A stretch of DNA of 64,000 bases from Allodiplogaster sudhausi (taxonomy: Eukaryota > Nematoda > Chromadorea > Rhabditida > Diplogasteridae), in NCBI GenBank assembly GCA_945643635.1, contig CALZFC010000013.1, positions 582,501 through 646,500 of the forward strand, given 5' to 3'. The notes under the pieces were generated by a model. That model did no database searches, was not told the origin of the DNA, and saw nothing but the letters and a program-made list of their open reading frames with translations. Positions 10,501 to 64,000 of the stretch are shown here, in pieces. The translations under genes and the position numbers were made by a program. Position 1 is the first letter of the stretch; every line of letters begins with the position of its first letter.

Positions 10501-13500
10501 ATGACCAGACGCTCTTTGGGCAATCCGAACGGCAGCGGTGGATGATCTTCAGGAAGTACTTGTCCTATAACAACAAAAGTGTCTTCAGGAAGTACTTGTC
10601 CTGTAACAACAAAAGTATCTTCAGGAAGTACTCGTAATGTAACAACAAAAGTATCCTCAGGAAGTACTTGTCCTGTAACAAGAAAAGTATCATCAGGCAG
10701 TACTAGTCCTGTAAGCAACAAATGTTAGCTGTAGATTACGAGCAGATTAGAACTTTATATTCGCCAGATGACAGTAATCCCTCTATGAAACTAGACTTTG
10801 ATGCAGTCAAAGAAACTTACGGGTTGGAAGAAATAGTTGTGGGCGTCGCCTGAGATCGTGTGTTCTGTCTTGCCATCCACAGGGAGGTCAGGCGTGGAGG
10901 TCAACAACTTGCGACCTCAAAAAACAGATGAAATTGTTATTTATTAAAATTAAGATAATTACCTACTTCTCGACTTACATACATATAGTGTGTAATTGTG
11001 GAAATTTTCTTTTGAAGTTGTACGACTCCGTTTTTCAAATGCGAAAGGAACTTGTGCGCGGGGGCTCATCTATGGATGCTTTCTAGTGTTTTAAATCTTC
11101 AAATTCTGACTGAAGAAAGTTGAGTAGTCCCACAACTCGACGGTGACCGTGTGATTCTTGAGCCAATCTTTACGGCAGTAGAGCGTGAAAGTCGCCTTGA
11201 TAGGATTGCCGGCCGAAGCCAGCGAAAACAGCTCAAACGCGCCAATCAAGAAGAGGAGCGAGAAGCGAGCCATTTCTAGAACAATAAACAAGGAAAGACT
11301 AGGTAATTGATCACGAAAAATTTTGGATATCTTTTTAGCGGAAATAATAACGCAAGAATTCATAGGGATGATTTGAAAGAGAAGAGCGTACCCAGAGTCG
11401 ACTGATCGCCAGAGGAGAAGGAACGAAGAATGAGGATGTTCCTCATTTTTATATGCATTTCAAAGAAGATATTAAAATGCATTACTAGTTCAAAATAAAA
11501 AAATTATGCAACAAGCTCATAAATTCTCTTCCTGTTTCCTCGTAATCTCACCTCTTTGAGCAATATTACGCTTTAAATAAATTTTACAGTATAATTAATA
11601 CCAAATAATTTCACGACAACGGTTTAACGAATCAAAATAAACAATTTAAAACGCACGTACGTAAACAGCAGAAAAAACCATTCTGGGACTTGACATTGCT
11701 TGAAAATATGGCCAATTTACTAATTGACTTACGCACATTTGATACTAGATTACAGATATGTACATAGAATAAGCTGAAATCGGGAAAGAATCGTATGAAC
11801 TGTTGACAACTGAACGATCGCGGAAAACGTACTTAATTTCAAATACTATAGACACCATGAAACGTCAAGAATTCGAACATGTCCATTTTACCAACTGCCA
11901 ACTTCATAAAACTTACAATTAAATATAAGCATTTTTATTTCTCACAATCAGAGCTATAATTTGGATATTTTAAAATGGATTCAATGATCTATCTTCACGA
12001 GTACTTTATCATTTCAGTTGTATGCATATTTCTTCAGCACTTAATGTGCTGTGCAGTTCGAAATTTTTGAAATTCAGTTTCAAGAAAATACGCTTAGCAA
12101 ATGATCTCATCTTAAGAAGCTTCTCATGGTCAGCTCGCAATGAATCCTTAATTGGGGTTTGAATGCGCGCCCTCTCAGAGATGAGCAGAGGGGCGCGAAG
12201 CGGTAGCGAGCGGATTAGCACGTGAGTTATGGGTTATGAAATAACAAGGGGGTTAGTCTTCATTCTACGCTCAAGTGTCCGTAAGAGGTGGTGTGGTTAC
12301 CCGGCCCGCCCCCACCCGTTAAGCAATGAAAGAAACCGGCTCGAACTGTATGGAGTTTGGTGTTATATTCCCAGGTCCGAGGAGGACGTTCTTGACGAAA
12401 GGACTACAGAAGTCTTCCCACAGAAGTGACGGATGCGATTTGGCGAGCAGCAGGGCAGTCCATGGCAGCAAGCACGCGAAAGATGTACGAGGGTAGCGAG
12501 CGAGCTAGGATCGCTTTCTGCAGAGGAATCGGGATGGACCCGGATAGCCCTTTTGCGCTGTGTGCATATGTTGCACGCAAGTTTGCCGACGGAGCTTCGG
12601 CGGCGACATTGACGACTGCGACAGCAGCATTCAAAACGGCGACTGGGCAGGCGGTCAACCATCTCAGAGAAGGGGCGGTTGTGGACATGGTGTGTTCAAG
12701 TTATCAGATCATTTTACTCTAGTTCTGTTTATCGCGGCTTTTCAAGAACCCAGGAGTTCTCAAGGGTGAAGGCGGCAGCTCAGCGGCAGAAGGCTGTTCG
12801 CCATCATTCAGCGGCCGAGAGGGCGGATGTAGACAAGCTGATCGCATGGGCGTTACGGGAGGGTTCGAAGCAGGAGGACATCCGGATTGGGCTGTTTGCA
12901 GCCTTGGCCATGGCGGCACTGCTCAGGGTGTCGGAAGCGGTGGCCCTGCAGCGCAAGGATGTCAAGAAGGAAGGTAATGTCGTGGCCATTTCCATCCGCG
13001 GAGCCAAGAACGACCAGAACAAGGAGGGAAGGGTGACGAGTGTCATTGCTGAAGCCAACTCGCTCGGTGAGAGGCTCTTCAACTCACATATGGACTGGGT
13101 CCCGTCCCATGGTGAAGTTTACATTTTTGCGAGTAGAAGTACCGGAAGGCCATTCACCACTTCTACCATGAGAAAGGAACTCGGCAGAGCTTGTGATGAG
13201 GCGGGCATTGCTCGCATCACCCCGCATCAACTCAGGGTGGGCGGGGATCGTATCCGGCGCGACTCTGGACCAAATCCGAATCCGAGGTAGATGGCGCTCA
13301 GTGGGAGGAATGAGTCTGTACATCAAAGACTCACTGCCGGCGTAAGGGGGCGCTCTTTCTCTTTAGGCCAACAAGTTTTGGGGAGTTGTACAATAGCTGA
13401 GGTGTACATAGGCTGTTTTTGTTTTACCCTATGAGGACAATTTTCAGTTGTATTGACAGCGTCATAACGAGAATTGTAAATACTGTGTTTGGCTGCTATA

Positions 13501-17563: not shown

Positions 17564-19395
17564 TACTCTCTATGCCTCCCCTCTCATCTCCTCTTTCTTC
17601 ATAGCTCAGAACAAGGTGAAGCATACCTTACCCACTCTTTATCTCTCTTGCTTGCTATCTTTCTCTTTCACTTTCTCTCTTTCTTCACTTTCTCTTGTTC
17701 TCTCTCTCTATCTCTCTCTCTTGCTTGCTCTCTTCGCCCAAAAAACCCTATCCTGTCCCCGCGGTCGTATTATATTAAGAAAACAATACTTCATTTCCGA
17801 TTTCTGTGCTTTTTTCTTTCTCGCTCTCTATCTCTTACATTCCTCGTTCTTCTCTCTCTATTTCTCTCTTTCTTTTTCTCTCTAACATTCTATCTTTGTC
17901 TCCATCTTTCTCTCTCTCTCCTTCTCTTGTGACTCCCTCTCACTTTATCTCTTCCTCCCTCTCTCTCTCCCTCTTTCTCTCCTCCGACTCTCTCTCTCTC
18001 TCTCTCTCTATCTCTCGCTCTCTCTTCTCCAATCTCTCTCATCTCCTGGGGTCTGGGTCGGCCAGCCGGTCGCCCGCTACACTCACTCACTTCCGGTGGG
18101 CGAACTGGAAGTGTGAATGTGTTTGACACGGCCGGTTAGTTTGAAAATTATCGAGAGAGGGAGAGAGAGAGGGAGAGTGAAAGATAGAGAGATAGAGAGA
18201 GAGCGAGAGAGAGCGAGAGAGAGACAGAAGGAGAGAGAGAGAGAGGATGAAGAGACATAAGGGAGAGGGGAGGGAGAACAGAGGGAGAGAGAGAGGGAAG
18301 AGAGAGCCTTGAGAAAGAAAGCCAAAAGTGGTGTTAGGCGGATAAGAAAACATTTGGAGAACTCTTCGACTATCCAAACGAAGCATTCTTCAGCGAGGTA
18401 GAGGAGTGCTAATGAGAGAGTGAGTGGAAGAGAGAGAGAGAGACAGAGAGAGAGAGAGAGGGACAGAGCGAAGCGGAGAAACAGAGAAGGCAAGAGAGAG
18501 ACAGAGAGAGGGTAGAGAGACAGAGAAAGGAAAGCGAAAGAGATGGTGGTATGTAGATTGAGGAAGAGTGATGGAAACATGTGGTTTGGTGCCGGTGCAG
18601 GAAGTACTATTGAAAATGTGAATTATCACTTCCAAACATTATCTTCATCGACTTCTAGCGCAGAAACCAAGTAAAAACTACGAAAACTGTGCAGAGTAGA
18701 ACTTTGAAAGAGTCTTTTTGAGAGAACTACTTGATGTACATTCATATACATACATACATAGGTGCCACTCCCCAGATCCGCTGCACTTTTACACCTTAAA
18801 CGTTTCTAACTTTTCAACCTCTAATAAGCCTAGAAACGTAAAAGAACCGCAGCGTATTCCTTGAAGAAAAATAAATGCTCACTTCTTCAAAAATCGACCT
18901 TGACCATCTCTTGAAAGTAGCCTTGAGAATGCCTACTTTATGAATGAAAAAGAGCTTTAGCGTGTGTGAAATACTAATTAAAGTAGAAAGAAACTAGTCG
19001 CCTCTCTCTCTAAAACTCTCTAGATCGCCTTTGTTTTTTTACTCAAAAAGGCGCGAAAGGCGGGAATTCAAAATTGAGTCTTTATCTCCTTTTAGTAGAA
19101 TGAAATGAAGAACTTTCTAGTCTGTAAACGCTAGTTCCGTGGTCATGTGTGTGTGCCAATTTTGTCAAGACATGACAGATCAAAGAAGAAAAAAAGACGA
19201 TTTCGTCAATAATCATCAGCACTCGTAGAGCCGTTTCCCTGATCTGGCGCACTAAAAATAGCTCTCTGCCGATTTTGGCGCTGTTTCTTATCCTATTCTT
19301 GCACTTGTTCCGTCACACACAACAGCGGCGCTTTCCTCTTTTGTCTCCTCTCTTTTCCATTTTCATCCTATTTTTCCTCTCCTTCATTTGATTGA

Positions 19396-29800: not shown

Positions 29801-32800
29801 TCTCGTAAGCAGGCAGCGGCCAACCCTGTCGTCCGAAATGTCATACGACGGGTCATCTTGTAGCCTCTTGAGGAATGGAGCTCCTTGCTTGCCAACCAAT
29901 AACTTCTCAAAGCTGCATTTCAAAAGGCGCTGGTTCAGACGATGGTAGAAGGGGTCTTAAACGCATACGTTTACTTGTTTAAAAGGAAAATTAATTAGAA
30001 ATCTGCTTGCGCCGAGTTTTGCTTGCATACTAAAGGATACAACAGACAAAAGTGCAGTTTACTAAACAGAAATTTAAAGGCCTGCCTGTGTACATCGTCC
30101 GATCTGGAACTGCCGAGGGAGTTCTGACCAACGGTGACTCCGAGCGAACTTGAGGTGTCGAGGGATGAGAAATCGCTAAGTAAATTAAATGAATTACTAG
30201 CTGCGCTTACAATCTGAGTATGATTTACCTCCAAGCTCTTCAAGATCGCGATCTTTGTCGACTTCTCTCTCACAAGGGTTAGCATCTTCAACATCAACTG
30301 AAAATTCATGAATCTAAGATATGAGCATTCATTTTAGTATAACCTTGCTCCGCTCGAGTATCATCAGGAAAAACTGCGTTTTTCTCCCACGAGAGCGCAG
30401 TCGGATTGGTTGGCGAAAGGGACTCATTTTTTGCCAGGAATGTGGAAGAAATCGAGAGGGATAGCTCCTGGCTGTTCATCGTAGTCGAAGTTGCCGGACT
30501 CTGAGAAGTGATCCACGTAAAAATATACTCATTTAGAGAGATAGGCAATCGGTAAACCTCGAGTAAGCTTCCTGTTGCTATGTAATGTGCGTGTGGCGCC
30601 GCAACAACTTGAGAGGGGTGAACGTCTATCATACGCTGAGGAGTGTTGAGCTGCAGCCTGACATTTGTCAGAGGGGAGCCAGTCCGTGTACTCACATATT
30701 GCTTGACTTGTGCAATGGTCTCGAAGTAGCAGTCCTCTTCGCCCAAACACTCGGGCTCAGGAGCACCCGCTTCCAACAGAATGGTTAGACGCATTGGGTC
30801 TAACGCTAAAGATCACACTAACTAGGAAATAAATCATGCAAATGATCACATATTCGTGAGCCGTCGTAAATAACGGGATAAATTGAAATATTGATCTTCA
30901 GATCAAAGTATTTGTTTATTGCTAAGAGAAAATAACGAAAATATTCTAGCAGTGGCAGAGGGCGTGTCTTGGCATGAAAGCGGTCTCATTTCCCTCGGGG
31001 TAGCCGTCAAGAGGCAGTGGATCAAAAAGTTCCTTGAAAAAGACAGTTGTGATCGCTCCAGATGCGGTGAAGAAGCAACATTGTCTGCTGTCATCAAATC
31101 GAGCGGGATGTCCGATCTTTGCAACGATCTTCCATGTTTGTTCCGTGAATGCGAAGCAATCGATCTGGGCAGGAACAAAGCTGCTACTCTTGTTCAGCAA
31201 AACGATGTCTCCCGACTTGTAGAGTGTCCCGTGATGCTGGAGTAGGAGAGTGCACTTCACCCGTCGTTCCTTCAGAACTGCCCGTGCGAGCGCTGACACT
31301 TGATGTTGCTCGATTCCTTTTCCGGGAACGAATTCCACCTCCTTCTGAAGACGTAGTGCCCAAAGAGTGCGCTGGATGTGAGTTGCGAACGTGCACGGCA
31401 GACACGTGAAGTTCCTTGTAATGTAGGACCGTCGCTTGACGTACGCATTCAGTTGCTCGAATTGCAGAGTACTCAGTTGTCCAACTGGCCCTAGAGAACG
31501 AATCGCAGCTGCATAGTGCAGCAACGCGTGCGTCTTGTAGATGGGCCTGGACGAATGGGCTGCAGCTGCGCGAGAGGGCGGAATGTCCAGAGGGACAACT
31601 CGCCAAGCAAGAGACACGTATTCCTCGGCCGTAGAACGTACCAAATCAATGTCGCCAGATGTCAACTCGAATGAGCAGAGAAGGCGACTCAACTCGGAAA
31701 AGCGCTGGAACAGAAGCCGGATCTCAGGTTCCGCAACCATTACGTCCAACGGGAAGAGAAATGGGACGAGCCGAATGAGAAATGCTGTGTCGGCTGCCTT
31801 TTGCCCGGACACAGGGTCACCTTGCGAAACATCGGCCGGGATTGGGTTGATTGTGCAGCTGCTGTCGACTCGCCCAGTAGCAAAGGCACATAACTTATCG
31901 TTGATATCCTTGAGCGGAAGTCCATTCCGAATGATGGCCCGAATGACCACTCCTAGAAGACGGCAGCTCTCGCCCTCGTACAAGTCGTGGGCGATATCAC
32001 AGTAGGCATCCTCCGACACGTGGTATCCCGTAATGCCGTTGAGTGGCGAATCCCCCATCACGCCAAAAGCAGGAGGGCCGTTCGCTTGATACCTTAAGTT
32101 ATCGCTTAAATTCATCCTATCTCCGATCAACGACAAAGGAACCGACCACGCCAAAGTCCGTAATTGGCAGTCCTTCTCTAGGTGAACGGCTCCAAAGTCG
32201 CGGTAGTTGGTCAAGCAGTGACGGCAAGGGAAACCTCCGGAAAAGCACGTCTGCATCTGGCGGACTTGGTTTAGTGCCAGGTTATCACCAAGAACCGAGT
32301 GCAGCCAAGGGTAGACGACAACGCTTCGCCCTCTCCACGACACCATGATTCCGTTTTCGTAGAGTACGTTCAACTCTACCTAAGAAGTTAAACTAATTGT
32401 TGATCTTTATTTACAACTTTTACGCTTTTTTAAAAATTTTACTTCAAATATATTACGGCACCTTGAAGCTTTCTAGAAGAGGCTTGTAGCCATAAGCCTT
32501 GTGATCAGACCCGTACGATGTCGCGTAGAGAAACCTAAAGCATTTACTTGAAGAACTGCTTTTTTTATTTTAGCATTTTGACACTTACTTCCATTTATGT
32601 AGACACGAAGCATGCCGTCTCAGTCCGGAAAAAGTGAAGAACATCATGGTTTGAGAGTGGATAGACGACGCCTTTCGTAGACCACTTCCAGGGCAAACGT
32701 CATCGAGGTATACCACAATCGGAAGTAGTGGTTTCTTCGTTCTGGAGGTAGCGTCACGAAACCGTTGCCCGTCCAGTGGAGACAGGAAATTCCCCCTTCC

Positions 32801-57270: not shown

Positions 57271-58345
57271 ATGAGTTAATTGGTAACCTTGTAAGGTTCA
57301 CCGTAACTGATAAAGGCAACGGTAAAGATCCGCTATGAAGGATAGAGGCCACAGGCAAAGATCCATTAATGGATATAGGCCACCGCATACATTAGTACGG
57401 TCAACTTGATGAGACTACCTTTTCTCTCTCTCTCCCTTTGTATGTGTTAAGTGGTAACCTTGTTTGGTTCACCTAATACTGATAGAGGCAACGGCAAAGA
57501 TCCGCTCTGAAGGATAGAGGCCAAAGGCAAAGATCCGTTTAAGGAAATAGGCCACTGCATAAATCAGTATGGTGAATCTAATGAGGAAGCCTTTTTGTTA
57601 TGATGTCATACATGATATATCCGTTCAAAGGCCTTCGCAGCAAGCCTATAAACTGCTACATCTAATTGAAAGGCAAAGATCCGTTATGAAGGATAGAGGC
57701 CAAGGCAAAGATCCTTTTATGGATATTAGCCACAACAAAGCAGAGTGAATTGGTAGTCCCGGTTGGTTCACAGCATACTGATAGAGGCAACGGTAAAGAT
57801 CCGCTATGAAGGATAGAGGCCACAGGCAAAGATCCATTAATGGATATAGGCCACCGCATACATTAGTACGGTCAGCTTGATGAGACTACCTTTTCTCTCT
57901 CTCTCCCTTTGTATGTGTTAAGTGGTAACCTTGTTTGGTTCACCTAATACTGATAGAGGCAACGGCAAAGATCCGCTCTGAATTATAGAGGCCAAAGGCA
58001 AAGATCCGTTTAAGGATATAGGCCACTGCATAAATCAGTATGGTGAATCTAATGAGGAAGCCTTTTTGTTATGATGTCATACATGATATATCCGTTCAAA
58101 GGCCTTCGCAGCAAGCCTATAAACTGCTACATCTAATTGAAAGGCAAAGATCCGTTATGAAGGATAGAGGCCAAGGCAAAGATCCTTTTATGGATATTAG
58201 CCACAACAAAGCAGAGTGAATTGGTAGTCCCGGTTGGTTCACAGCATACTGATAGAGGCAACGGTAAAGATCCGCTATGAAGGATAGAGACCAAAGGCAA
58301 AGATCCGTTTACGGATATAGGCCACCGCGTATATCAGCATGGTGA
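56950..58345. repeat. 471-bp tandem array made of covarying hairpins
   Basis: GGTAAAGATCCGCTATGAAGG recurs at 57,321, 57,792 and 58,263, an exact 471-bp period with few differences; 56,950-57,300 is an older diverged copy. Each unit holds pairs of hairpins of the form GGCAAAGATCC-loop-GGATANAGGCC: an ATCC/GGAT inner stem, a purine internal loop AAAG opposite ANAG, and an outer GGC/GCC stem. At 56,966 the outer stem is AAGGT/ACCTT instead, a compensatory change. At least fifteen hairpins are present. Short CT runs are embedded. No coding. Confidence 0.85.
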
Positions 58346-58394
58346 ACTTTCTGGGGCTACCTTATTGAATTTTATACCATTCCACTGTGTTCTG

Positions 58395-59010: not shown

Positions 59011-59168
59011 CCTCTCTACTTATCAATGAAAGACCAAGGCGCAGCATGTCTTTAAACTGCAGTCTGCTCACTGAATGCCATGAAAGCCAATTAATGATTG
59101 AACTGAGCCATACAAAGGCGACGAATGATCTGTAATTCATACGAGTACTACCTCAGGTTTATTAAATA

Positions 59169-59247
59169 ACCCGTCATGAGATTAAAGGGACGAAACGGGT
59201 CAATGTTTCTGTATATGTCAGGTTCTCATCTGATGAGTCCCGCCTGA
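59169..59247 (+). ncRNA. hammerhead-like RNA with permuted strand order, copy 1
   Basis: Stem III ACCCGT (59,169-59,174) with ACGGGT (59,195-59,200); C17 at 59,175; stem I ATGAGA (59,176-59,181) with TCTCAT (59,224-59,229); core CTGATGA (59,230-59,236); stem II GTCCC (59,237-59,241) with GGGAC (59,187-59,191); core GAA (59,192-59,194). A fourth stem TCAGG/CCTGA (59,218-59,222 with 59,243-59,247) encloses the CTGATGA strand. All conserved hammerhead positions are present, including the A15.1-U16.1 and G10.1-C11.1 pairs. The linear order is cleavage strand, GAA strand, CUGAUGA strand, so the stems cross (pseudoknot). Cleavage would be expected after C 59,175. Activity is inference. Confidence 0.75.
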
Positions 59248-59606
59248 ACTGATATGTTGGTGAAGAATGCTATCAATGCACTATTAATTTATTGTGAATT
59301 TTATTAACAAGGTTCCTTTTCCGAACCTTCCTGTCTTTCTTTCAAACAGTCGTAAAGCGTGATCGATCAATTTTATTGAGCCAGAATATGAAAGTAACAT
59401 TCACGACTGATTCATATATTTTTATTATTATGCATCGATAAAGATCCATTGATTTTTATTAATTAAGAATGATCGCCAATTTTTGCACTGAATCACATGA
59501 ATATTTTGAAGTAGAACGGGTGTTTTTCCAAATAAAGAATGAATGAAGTATTCTGAAAATATTACTCAAGAAAGAAAGGAATGATCGTCAAAGCTTCAAT
59601 TGCATA

Positions 59607-59685
59607 ACCCGTCATGAGATTAAAGGGACGAAACGGGTCAACGTTTCTGAATGTATCAGGTTCTCATCTGATGAGTCCCGCCTGA
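59607..59685 (+). ncRNA. hammerhead-like RNA with permuted strand order, copy 2
   Basis: Same strands at ACCCGT 59,607-59,612, C 59,613, ATGAGA 59,614-59,619, GGGAC 59,625-59,629, GAA 59,630-59,632, ACGGGT 59,633-59,638, TCAGG 59,656-59,660, TCTCAT 59,662-59,667, CTGATGA 59,668-59,674, GTCCC 59,675-59,679 and CCTGA 59,681-59,685. The TTAAA linker and all spacings equal copy 1, while the intervening segment has several substitutions. Confidence 0.75.
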
Positions 59686-60119
59686 AGAAATGCTTTGATT
59701 AAGAATGTTATCAATGCAATATTATTATGTGTGTGAATATTATTAACAAGGCTCGCTTTATGTTCCTTTATATCATTCTTTTGAATGAACCAGAATGTGA
59801 AGTTCATCTGAACGACTGATGAATATATCTCATTTATTTTAAATATAATAAATCAATAAAGTTCAATCGACCTTTGTTAATTATGAATGATCGACGATAT
59901 ATGCTCTGTATTACGTGAATATTTTGGAGATCAATAGGTGTTCTTACATATAAAGAATGATTGAAGTATTCTGACTATATTAATCGAGAATGAAACGAAT
60001 GATCGGATATGAATTGTATATAAGAAATTTTTACTCTTCACCATTCCGTTGAAAATTATCAGAGTATGATATATACTGAATGATTGAACTTCAAGTGCCG
60101 TCAAACATACAATTGCATT

Positions 60120-60198
60120 ACCCGTCATCAGATTAAAGGGACGAAACGGGCTAATTGTTTGCAATATACCAGGTTCTGATCTGATGAGTCCCGCCTGG
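60120..60198 (+). ncRNA. hammerhead-like RNA with permuted strand order, copy 3 (compensatory changes)
   Basis: Stem I is ATCAGA (60,127-60,132) with TCTGAT (60,175-60,180): relative to copies 1 and 2 one G-C pair has become C-G. The fourth stem is CCAGG/CCTGG (60,169-60,173 with 60,194-60,198), a U-A to C-G change. Core CTGATGA (60,181-60,187), GAA (60,143-60,145), GTC (60,124-60,126) and stem II (60,138-60,142 with 60,188-60,192) are unchanged; stem III keeps five pairs and loses the outermost. The 3' end is about 430 nt upstream of the ULP reading frame. Confidence 0.8.
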
Positions 60199-60628
60199 AG
60201 AAAAATATCTATAAAACAGTCAATATCATATGCAAGCTAATAACTTGTTATTGTGAGCCATCAACTATGAATGAATGAAATGGAACTGATTACAGAAGAG
60301 ATTGATATTGCATTCAATTTGAATTAATAATTCAGTTTGTTTGAGAAATCTGAAGAATGAATTTAATCTGTATGATCAAGATGTGACTGCAAGAATTGCA
60401 TGTACATATCGAGAGAGACGAGTAATGAACCAATAATAAGGATAAATTTTGTGTATCTGCTCTGTCTGATGTGCTATCAGCAAAGTTTTCTTTAGTGCCT
60501 GTGTGCAAATGAGGTGCAGAAGTGCCCGATCATGATGTATGTACATATTTGCATTGTTGATGTGGCGTGGCGCATAAGATATGTGTAGCCGATAACAGAC
60601 CAGTGAACTATTTAATTCACTTTTGCAG

Positions 60629-63600
60629 GAGGTAAGCAGTACTCTGGTGACAGTGACTCTGGAAACGACACAATTTGCGCATTGAGTTCCATTTATCAGG
60701 TCTTCGCGCAGAAAAAAGATGCAACAGCAGCAGGCGAATGTTACTTGGTAGATCAAATACACATTGACTTTGCATTTGCAAGAATGACCGACGCGATGAA
60801 GCTCACTGCAAAACGGATTCTCTTTGCTGTCCACTATGGAGTTCACTTTTGGTTTGCCGAGTATATTAGAGAGGAGAATGTTGTGAAAATATCAGATTCC
60901 ATGGAAGGCAAAACATATCATAAGGGCACATACTCGCAGCACATAAGCGCAAAGGGAATTTGTCAGCTGATAAAGCACGTGTTTGGAGATGTTCCAAAGC
61001 CAAGCTTCATATGGGAAACGGTTCAACAGCAGCCAGACACATTCAATTGTGGTGTATTCACATGCAAATACTACGAGTGCGCAGTGAAAAGAATTCCACA
61101 ACCAAAGGAAGGATTTGATTGCAGACTGTACAGATATGTCATGCTTAATGTTTTGGAAGGTCGGAATCAAGTTCCTGTAGTTATCCCAGCAGAAGAGAAG
61201 GAAAAACCGGTGCGAATTGAAAAGAAAATTGAAAATGAGTGGACTGAAGTAAAGCCAAGAAGAAGTCAGAGATCAAGTTCTAAAAATGATGACTACCTAT
61301 TCAAAAAGCCTCTGGGACCAGCAAAAAGGAAGAGCACCTTAAAGAAAAATGCCATTACGATCGAAGTAGCCCCAGAGTTTGAGACCGTCAGACCGTACAA
61401 TCTTCTCGAACTTAACGATTCAGATGATGGAGAAGAATTTATTGAACAACCATACGATGAGCTTCTGGATTCAACGAGAAAGTTGAAAGAAATGACAGTA
61501 CAAAAAATGTTTGAGAAAATTTCTGAAAAAAATAACAAATCTGAGACTATGCTTCTGAATGTATCTGCTTGTCACGTACTTAGGTATCTGGATTATGGTC
61601 ACAAGTTTGATGCAAAGGAAATGCCTACATTGTTCAAAGAATATTTAGTTCGAAAGTGCAAGTCAATGAAAAGAATTCTTATGCCATTTGTTGATGACCA
61701 TAGAAAAGGACAATATCTATGTGCGGTTTATGAGAAAAATGAAAACATTTTGACCATTTACGATTCATTGTGGGGTGATGGAGAGGAATATGAGTGGATT
61801 CAAATGAATGTGCGAAATTTAATCAGTCACCTTGTGAGGCCAACGAATGAAATAAAAATAGCGACGGTTCTATGCACGAAGCAAAAAGCGATCGTCGACT
61901 CAGGAGTGCATGCAAATAGGTTTGCTGTTAATTGTTTGAATAATAAGCCAGTTATGGAAGCCAATCTCGATGTATCTGAATATCGGAAAGAAATATACGA
62001 AATTTTGATTGGAAACCGTGATCTCGTGCCCAAATGTACAGTTAAAAGCGCTGCAGCAGAAAAGGATAAATCTCAAGACACTCAGCAAATTATGTTTGAT
62101 GTTGCCAAAATGGATAATAAAATTTTGATTGGAAACCGTGATCTCGTGCCTAAATGTACAGTTAAAAGCGCTGCAACAGTCCAGGATAAATCTGAAGACA
62201 CTCATGAAATTATATTTGATGTTGCCAAAATTAAGAAACAATTGAATGCAAAGCAAAAACCATTGGATGTCGATGTCATTGAATCGTGTATGCTTAGGTT
62301 GGCAATGAATAAACCTACAGCAAAAGCAGTAGTGTGTAAATTTGATATTTTCAAAAATAAAGATATTTCTATCGACAGAGCATTGATGCGATCGTATGAA
62401 GGATCACTTTCTGACTGTAACTTGGCTCAATTTGTTGTTACTGATCAGAATCGCCCAAAGCATGTTTATTACTGTGATTACAACTGGTCTTCCGGCAAAT
62501 TAAGAATTTGTGATTCTGATGAACAGGATAGCATAGAATACTACAAAAACACAACCGATACCATTTATGAAATCATTTCTCTTATTAAGCCTTCCTCATA
62601 TGGATTTAAAGCTGATCTTGAAGAATGCAAACAGCACAGTAAATCTTCAAAATTCAATGCTCACATTTATGTATGTGCATTTGCGGACTGCGCAATCTCA
62701 GAATGCGACTTTGATCTATTTGGTCATAATCCCATGATTTTCAAGAATAAGCTGATATCACTGTTTACAACTGATGAAGAAAGAAATACAAAAAGGAAAA
62801 GTGACACTCCTGTTTCGGCGAATATAAACACAAGTGGTGTTGAATTGAAAACTACGGAGCCTAATGACTCTGTCCGAATTACAAGAAGCCGAAGCAGAAC
62901 TCCAGTGTCAGACACTGACAACAACTTTTTTAAAGAACCAGCATCTGAAAATAAAATAGTTAACCAGACCCCAAAACGTAAATTCAGAGATAATGAAGTA
63001 CAGAGTTCTGAAAAGAAAAGAAAGATTGGAGAATTGGAAAGCCCATCTATTTTGCTAAATAGAATGAGTCAGATGCAATTAATACAGAGTCCTTTAAGTC
63101 TGAAGTCTGGAAGAAAGAGGAAGGTTGAAGGACAAGTATCAGGGACACCATCTTCAATTTTGTCTAATATGAGCCAAATGCACATTGCTGCCGATAACAC
63201 ACCTTTGCGAACATCTATGAGGAAACCGAGATCGCTATTCAAAAGTGAAGCTAATGACGAAACGTACAAAGCAATATTTGGCTCAGCCAGATCAAGTGCG
63301 CCTATTGGGTCCATTTCATACGAAAGTTTGAATAAATTGGACAGCGCAGAGTGCCTGCCTTGTGATGTCGTGTACCGTGCTTTACAAGTTTTCTGCTACA
63401 AGAAGAATGTGTATCTAATTGACCCCCTTGAATACCATGGTTACTGCGACAATTCACGAAAAGTACAAAAATTGAAGGAACAAAACTTTAACCGATATTC
63501 GAAAATAATGTTTCCTCTGGTTAATAATGATCACTACATGCTATGTGTCATTGAACCTGAGAATAAGAGAGCCAGAGTGTATGACTCGCTGAACAGAGTG

Positions 63601-64000
63601 CAAAGAAGTGAACTGAACACAATTAAGCAATGTATCTCCCATCTCACCGGACTTGAAGTTGATGTAGATGCACAGGACGAGAGCAAAGTGACAATGCAGA
63701 GTGATAGTATCAGCTGTGGACCCATTACTATTTTCCATGGATTACAAATTATTAATAAACGATCAACAGTTGTTAAAAATTTTAATGTAACATCATTTAG
63801 ACTTCAATTGAAGAAATATTTGGAAAGTTGCAATTTACTAAAGATTGGAGGAGGAACTGAGGAATTAACTGATGAAAGGTCTCGGAGATCAAGTTCATGC
63901 TGTTCATTTACTTCTGAAAGCAGCATTGCTTCATCAACAACTTCTGAAAGATCGATTAGTTGTGATTATTCCAAGGAAGCACTTGAAATGTTGAGAAAAT
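60629..64000 (+). CDS. giant ORF with four tandem Ulp1-like (C48) cysteine-protease modules, 3' end outside window
   Basis: Open from 60,616 to the window edge (stop TAA at 60,613-60,615 upstream); CACTTTTGCAG at 60,618-60,628 is a good acceptor, so 60,629 is probably an internal exon start. Counting from there: module 1 has His73-Phe-Trp75, Asp90, Gln134/135 and Cys141 in VQQQPDTFNCGVF, the complete C48 set. Module 2 has YDSLW but Gln for His and Ser (codon 425) for Cys. Module 3 has HVYYCDYNW and CDSDE, but FNAHIYVC has Ala (678) for Cys. Module 4 has DHYMLCVIEP, VYDSLN, Gln1024 and Cys1030 in SISCGP, again complete. Linkers are basic/Ser-rich (RRSQRSSS, TRSRSRTP, SGRKRKVE) and disorder-like. 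C48 enzymes cleave ubiquitin-like proteins and also occur in many transposons. No host orthologue comes to mind, and I infer a mobile or viral-type element. Confidence 0.75.
62000..62231 (+). repeat. in-frame 120-bp tandem duplication inside the ULP ORF
   Basis: 62,000-62,111 recurs at 62,120-62,231 (offset exactly 120 bp, about ten differences). It duplicates 40 codons containing KILIGNRDLVPKCTVKSAA in the linker between modules 2 and 3 and keeps the frame. Confidence 0.95.

Follow-up and report, generated by a model that had tools for sequence, protein, structure and literature searches.

The closest described relatives of the elements considered here are the type-SGC/HRIMA-1 hammerheads of Eckert, Friedrich, Weinberg and Weinberg (2023; PMC10085705). 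In the available portions of that paper, type SGC is represented by 583 sequences with covariation, five type-SGC RNAs cleave in vitro at the predicted site, and in one of these all four stems were broken and rescued. The same portions describe almost all motifs of the study as exclusive to metatranscriptomes, with none of its RNAs placed in the genome of a known organism except one type-GCS candidate, and give the linker between stems I and II of type SGC as typically 3 nt. Hammerheads likewise occur in eukaryotic mobile elements, namely retrozymes, Penelope-like elements and Terminons, where they are terminal or in tandem; according to the accessible passages of these reports (PMC7761336, PMC6431247) the elements are retroelements with type I or type III ribozymes, whereas the element described below is a DNA transposon with type SGC. 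The R2 retrotransposon carries a 5' ribozyme whose self-cleavage sets the 5' end of its RNA (PMC3414825, in the accessible part), a role similar to the one we propose, although R2 belongs to another class of element and the core here is that of a hammerhead. Known Helitrons (RepHel), as far as the consulted part of PMC6431247 describes them, have Helitron_like_N and PIF1 in one large frame, as is the case here; the present element differs from them in its N-terminal C48 peptidase region and in having ribozymes on both sides of the gene. In the titles and beginnings of abstracts that we searched, with preprints and most subscription papers outside the search, there was no report linking a ribozyme with Helitrons, and in two of the papers naming both Helitron and hammerhead ribozyme the accessible passages treat the two separately. 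The strand order discussed here is already known; for its genomic setting in a Helitron we found no prior report.

Three elements of this kind lie in the window, by which we mean the whole 64-kb stretch of DNA analysed (C13:582501-646500 of a 351.8-Mb genome). We consider it probable that they are type-SGC hammerheads belonging to a nematode Helitron and situated in its 5' region, predicted to be self-cleaving and likely to trim the transposon RNA together with a second ribozyme type located behind the gene. The features on which the argument draws are, in window coordinates:

57295-58363, no strand assigned: 471-bp tandem satellite upstream of the array, with similar repeats upstream of several other arrays among the matches listed
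59161-60203, plus strand: array of three ribozymes alternating with two bodies (unit lengths 438 and 513 bp), its limits approximate and set by homology between copies
59169-59247, plus strand: type-SGC hammerhead copy 1, from the descriptor
59169-59175, plus strand: copy 1, stem III 5' strand ACCCGT and C17, with cleavage predicted after 59175 by analogy with the published RNAs (PMC10085705)
59176-59181, plus strand: copy 1, stem I 5' strand ATGAGA
59182-59186, plus strand: copy 1, linker TTAAA
59187-59200, plus strand: copy 1, stem II 3' strand GGGAC, then GAA, then stem III 3' strand ACGGGT
59218-59222, plus strand: copy 1, stem IV 5' strand TCAGG, with its 3' strand CCTGA at 59243-59247
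59224-59241, plus strand: copy 1, stem I 3' strand TCTCAT, then CTGATGA, then stem II 5' strand GTCCC
59607-59685, plus strand: type-SGC hammerhead copy 2, cleavage predicted after 59613
60120-60198, plus strand: type-SGC hammerhead copy 3, cleavage predicted after 60126, with two compensated changes
60616-63999, plus strand: 1128-aa open frame with the Peptidase_C48 (Ulp1) part of the Helitron gene, continuing past the window, its N-terminus shortened relative to other copies
60621-60636, plus strand: TTTTGCAG followed directly by GAG and GTAAG, a putative trans-splice acceptor, 3-nt exon and donor

Within each window copy the blocks follow one another as ACCCGT-C, stem I 5' strand, TTAAA, GGGAC-GAA-ACGGG(T or C), 17 nt, stem IV, stem I 3' strand-CTGATGA-GTCCC, and stem IV again. 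This is the order cleavage site - GAAA - CUGANGA of type SGC, and not the classical order S-C-G of hammerhead types I, II and III. The initial annotation had placed three copies here, with the hammerhead core in the order cleavage, GAA, CUGAUGA and with cleavage after C59175, C59613 and C60126; the descriptor finds the same three copies, and on sequence the predicted cleavage positions are right. Its further proposal that the strand order is new does not hold, as the order is that of type SGC in the accessible text of Eckert et al. (2023; PMC10085705), with which the window copies agree in S-G-C order, in the core and stems I-III, and in a further stem that connects stems I and II at their outer ends; the size is also similar, and the spacer falls within the published range of 0-44 nt. 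The stems and linker had been correctly read: stem I of 6 bp, stem II of 5 bp (GGGAC/GTCCC), stem III of 5-6 bp, stem IV of 5 bp, and TTAAA. Stem IV may gain an extra T-G wobble. Copies 1 and 2 have stem I ATGAGA/TCTCAT, stem IV TCAGG/CCTGA and a stem III ACCCGT/ACGGGT of 6 bp. Copy 3 has stem I ATCAGA/TCTGAT and stem IV CCAGG/CCTGG, which are the G-C to C-G and U-A to C-G exchanges described before; its stem III is reduced to 5 bp by a mismatch at the outer end (A60120 x C60151). The spacer, earlier given as a constant 18 nt, has that length if stem III is taken as 5 bp and is 17 nt if it is taken as 6 bp.

With a descriptor allowing all six block orders at 5/5/5 bp, SGC was the sole order found in the 64-kb window, three times and always on the plus strand, and the minus strand of the window gave no hammerhead of any block order. 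Among 762 first-order Markov windows of 64 kb, searched on both strands, order SGC arose by chance once at 5/5/5 bp or more and 14 times at 4/4/4 bp or more. The Rfam scan of the window returned no family at its threshold, and in the array region none of the Rfam hammerhead families at E up to 10; six further loci scanned with Rfam likewise gave no hammerhead, and a search of the whole genome with RF00163 had no match, its control being equally silent. Folding energies of the 88-nt ribozyme regions are not below those of shuffles, which a pseudoknot would explain, and which lends support in neither direction. The three window copies should not be counted as independent, because the array is one diverged tandem repeat with steps of 438 and 513 bp: a single 1,043-bp repeat with a ribozyme at its start and at its end, the sequence before the first copy and after the last having no similarity to the units above shuffles. 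Elsewhere in the window, a 477-aa open frame without Pfam match lies on the minus strand (30946-32379), and a tyrosine-recombinase domain on the plus strand (12613-13287; Phage_integrase, E 2.5e-13) belongs to another mobile element.

In the genome as a whole, three patterns, the last of them a loose one, gave 74, 105 and 154 sites, against 0, 0 and 1 in the reversed controls. A descriptor at 4/4/4 bp applied to the window and 48 further loci (L247-L294) yielded 83 instances, 47 of them distinct; of the 96 middle-pattern matches in these sequences it passed 79 and failed 17. Two of the failing copies (L286, L287) do so solely on account of a bulge in stem I (GCG(U)GGU/ACCCGC, with stem II GAGAC/GTCTC), a variant present on C55, C255 and C140. 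Others carry uncompensated changes; L293 and L289 hold several such copies, and in one L289 copy the cleavage position is occupied by G and the core is altered. The linker measures 5 nt in the window, 4 nt in other copies and 3 nt in L262 and L263. Compared with type SGC as described in the consulted text (PMC10085705), the copies differ in the occurrence of a GUA site and of a bulged stem I, and in being DNA-encoded in a nematode genome and repeated in Helitrons; their linker is 4-5 nt in most of them, where the published length is a typical value and no strict rule. Descriptor rows of the orders CSG and GCS within arrays were ascribed to neighbouring tandem units or to 4-bp stems. As a separate observation, another SGC type, in which the linker is 3 nt long and stem II is GGGC/GCCC, lies 1.6-2.3 kb upstream of the usual array in L262 (1060-1130) and L263 (310-380).

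Pattern scans of IMG/VR and GTDB gave 0, at least 120 and at least 118 stretches in three runs. On the 238 loci so obtained the descriptor returned 213 rows of order GSC (classical type II), 188 of them viral and 25 in GTDB loci, together with 8 SCG, 2 CGS, 2 GCS and 6 SGC rows, each SGC row having at least one stem of only 4 bp. A linker-specific scan of IMG/VR gave seven matches, none of them SGC. Several of the IMG/VR loci, L001, L007 and L012 among them, have more than one pattern match per viral contig, and L001 has five.

The gene behind the array belongs to a Helitron. Beyond the window, at C13:646501-652500 (L284), Pfam recognises Helitron_like_N (E 1.3e-43), PIF1 (E 7.3e-39) and Pif1_2B in two frames, the continuation of the window element being split in L284 over three overlapping or adjoining frames; both the Rep (HUH) domain and the PIF1-type helicase of a Helitron are present. 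On C251 Helitron_like_N and PIF1 lie in one open frame of 3,304 aa, whose stop comes 9,900 nt after its start, and C48 stands at the N-terminus of frames of this type (seen in L271). A 200-aa N-terminal query, which on C251 falls within this frame, matched 70 places, some of which are pieces of one gene; at 11 of them the open frame is exactly 3,304 aa long. No protein matched residues 1-500 of the C48 frame at E 0.001, and its best PDB sequence matches were weak, to sentrin-specific proteases at E 0.07 and above. Helitrons carry TC at their 5' end and CTRR at their 3' end, and insert between A and T.

The placement of the ribozyme upstream of this gene is a repeated one. Four N-terminal protein queries were compared with the window region and 37 loci, taking matches on the ribozyme's strand only, and a match to the N-terminal part of the gene lies downstream of the ribozyme on the same strand in 37 of these 38 loci, window included. 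In the 36 of them that also pass the descriptor, 472-2,183 nt separate the last ribozyme from the start of the best match; at L249 the gene match is present and the ribozyme fails the descriptor. The remaining locus, L250, has no gene match, and since a ribozyme of the 3' type adjoins its array, the gene seems to be deleted there. In seven loci, L271 among them, the start codon comes 552 nt after the ribozyme. Among the matches listed, 47 of 63 5'-type sites have a match to the L271 query 0-6 kb downstream; 11 more have a gene match by other queries (window, L247, L252, L266), and of the last five, four belong to the L250 array and one lies on C51, where 401 bp of the surroundings were read. 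Starting from the gene, seven Helitron-like frames were picked for having no nearby site among the matches listed for the middle pattern (100 of 105), and a 5' ribozyme lies upstream of two of them and was absent from the 3.2-3.6 kb examined at each of the other five. On the short contig C267 one ribozyme family recurs at 18033, 50103 and 82177, with a period of 32,070-32,074 bp; this period, together with the succession of PIF1 end, ribozyme and next gene in L255, suggests Helitrons arranged head to tail.

A second ribozyme type stands behind the gene. It has stem I GCGAGA/TCTCGC and mostly CTGACGA, can form stem II only if two G-U pairs or a UU bulge are allowed, and accounts for 37 of the 100 loose-pattern sites among the matches listed (154 in total); its stem III is nearly the same as that of the 5' type in most aligned copies. 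In the window element the gene stops at C13:652564 and the predicted 3' cleavage falls at about C13:652706. Among the matches listed, the gene begins 6.9-18.5 kb upstream of 24 of the 37 3'-type sites, in the same orientation. Likewise, for 18 of 32 clustered 3' sites a listed 5' site precedes on the same strand by no more than 16 kb, the spacing being 7.6-12.3 kb in 17 of these 18 and 0.6 kb in one, the deleted element. A run of at least four A within 15 nt before the CCC of CCCGTC, just ahead of the predicted cut, was found in 13 of 15 3' sites read, which come from a few related families and are therefore not independent; the corresponding figures are 9 of 71 for 5' sites and 17% for positions drawn at random in the vicinity. 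The two 3' sites without such a run are second copies of a tandem pair. The C251-type family has GUA at its 5' cleavage site, and in the intact element on C251 the 3' site (L322 5172-5250, C251:1771771) has C3 changed to U, with TTGACGA instead of CTGACGA. On C50, C85, C86 and C107, with the same 5' type as C251, no 3' site appears among the matches listed.

One might instead regard the tandem ribozymes as a retrozyme-like parasite that releases RNAs of 438 and 513 nt, which circularise and spread, the Helitron being a mere carrier. The tandem units with one ribozyme each do resemble those of animal retrozymes, whose repeats are given as ~150-300 bp in the consulted part of PMC7761336, and one ribozyme family in this genome has 183-bp units. 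We nevertheless think this unlikely, considering that several loci (L271, L274 and L280, for example) have a single ribozyme, that the Helitron gene follows in 37 of 38 loci, and that a different ribozyme type stands behind the gene. Moreover, retrozymes are non-autonomous and of type I or III, whereas the strand order here is S-G-C and not that of type I.

The fold itself was assessed on three alignments of chosen sets, of 12 copies, of 49 copies (48 distinct), and of 31 copies including the 3' type. In the 49-copy alignment, in which five rows with shifted 3' ends were kept (L250, L262, L263, one of L268, and L270), 96.0% of the cells pair, and two-sided changes are seen at 10 of 22 pairs, with every helix represented (5 of 6 pairs in stem I, 2 of 5 in stem II, 2 of 6 in stem III and 1 of 5 in stem IV). 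The two-sided cells number 50 against a shuffle mean of 16.4, and in the 31-copy set 55 against 15.3, none of 500 shuffles being as high in either case; as the copies share ancestry, these shuffle counts are not probabilities. When the partners were slid by 1-3 columns, pairing in the 49 copies fell to 31-50%. Further pair types were not above shuffles, with 264 of 500 for the 49 copies and 494 of 500 for the 31. Stem IV pairs in 92.9% of its cells in the 49-copy set, and its outer pair appears as A-U, U-A and C-G. The non-circular, pseudoknotted strand order with stems I-IV, which had first been proposed from the window copies, is thus backed by covariation over 49 genomic copies. The core is kept in all 49, and of 13 core positions only N7 (1) and position 17 (3) vary, an invariance partly forced, since all but two of the 49 had been picked with a descriptor in which the core is obligatory; decayed ribozyme copies exist outside this set. 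Some distant subfamilies, for example those of L256 and L271, can be aligned as DNA over more than 60 nt in the ribozyme alone.

These observations bear on the notion that ribozyme sequences have simply been copied along with recent Helitrons and have no present function. Such passive copying would fit the relatedness of the copies, which are partly near identical, and also the failure of 17 of 96 matches in the descriptor and the C3-to-U change in the 3' site of an otherwise intact element. The two-sided changes in all four helices, and a ribozyme that remains alignable where the neighbouring DNA does not, point on the other hand to past selection for the fold, and we consider passive copying improbable.

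That strands of neighbouring units pair between copies as ordinary type III hammerheads, with the local pseudoknot not forming, is conceivable in arrays, where S and C of one unit with G of the next would give the classical order, and seems to us very improbable, as single-copy loci retain every strand as well as stem IV even where the next listed copy is 32 kb away (C267), and as stem IV, with its outer pair changing on both sides, is part of the local fold. Helitrons act through single-stranded DNA, and DNA hairpins could matter in that context; a structured element of another kind that resembles a hammerhead, such as a Helitron replication signal acting as DNA, is a similarly improbable candidate in view of the G-U pairs in the stems and of core positions that vary at only two of 13 in the 49 copies, even with that constancy partly forced by the selection of copies.

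Let us therefore consider what the type-SGC hammerheads might do for the Helitron. Assuming that the element is transcribed and the RNA cleaved in the worm, the upstream cut would detach the gene RNA from any read-through transcript of satellites, of host DNA or of a neighbouring element arranged head to tail. It would leave a 5'-OH end, which SL1 trans-splicing at TTTTGCAG could replace with a capped leader; if trans-splicing takes place at this first acceptor, loss of the natural cap would not matter. After the downstream cut the RNA would end in an A-tract encoded in the genome and then CCCGUC, bearing a cyclic phosphate. Circularisation of the released RNA is another possibility: in type SGC almost all of the ribozyme stays with the downstream product, and the 5' and 3' sites have a nearly identical stem III in most aligned copies, so that the ends could perhaps meet and join. 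In its most far-reaching form, the proposal would be that the Helitron excises its own messenger by permuted hammerheads at both gene ends, with an encoded A-tail and an end that is either SL1-capped or closed into a 10-12 kb circle, and that it is the first genomic home of the type-SGC fold; this we offer tentatively, at somewhat less than even chances. Because type SGC had been reported from environmental sequences, its bearer was unknown; here a genome, a gene and a place are given, which makes the role of the ribozymes testable in an animal. If the proposal is true, self-cleaving ribozymes would be linked to a rolling-circle DNA transposon.

The splice-like arrangement invoked above, a 3' splice-like site three bases ahead of a 5' splice-like site, recurs beyond the window. 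In L271 (3110-3172) and at like sites upstream of start codons it reads TTTTTGTAG or TTTTTGCAG followed directly by GAG and GTAAGC, and it is kept across Helitron subfamilies, with GTTAGC as the donor at some loci. In each of the 18 loci listed, the donor precedes a CAG/ATG by 44-47 nt; the window element is without this CAG/ATG, found after the donor in other copies. The exact 22-base SL1 leader occurs 1,821 times in the genome, and its reversed control 0 times, which marks the genome as that of a nematode with SL1 and bears out the reference to nematodes in the initial annotation. A dense SL1 array lies at C1:10148768-10204176, with many copies 460 bp apart and with changes of orientation near 10.1593 and 10.1893 Mb.
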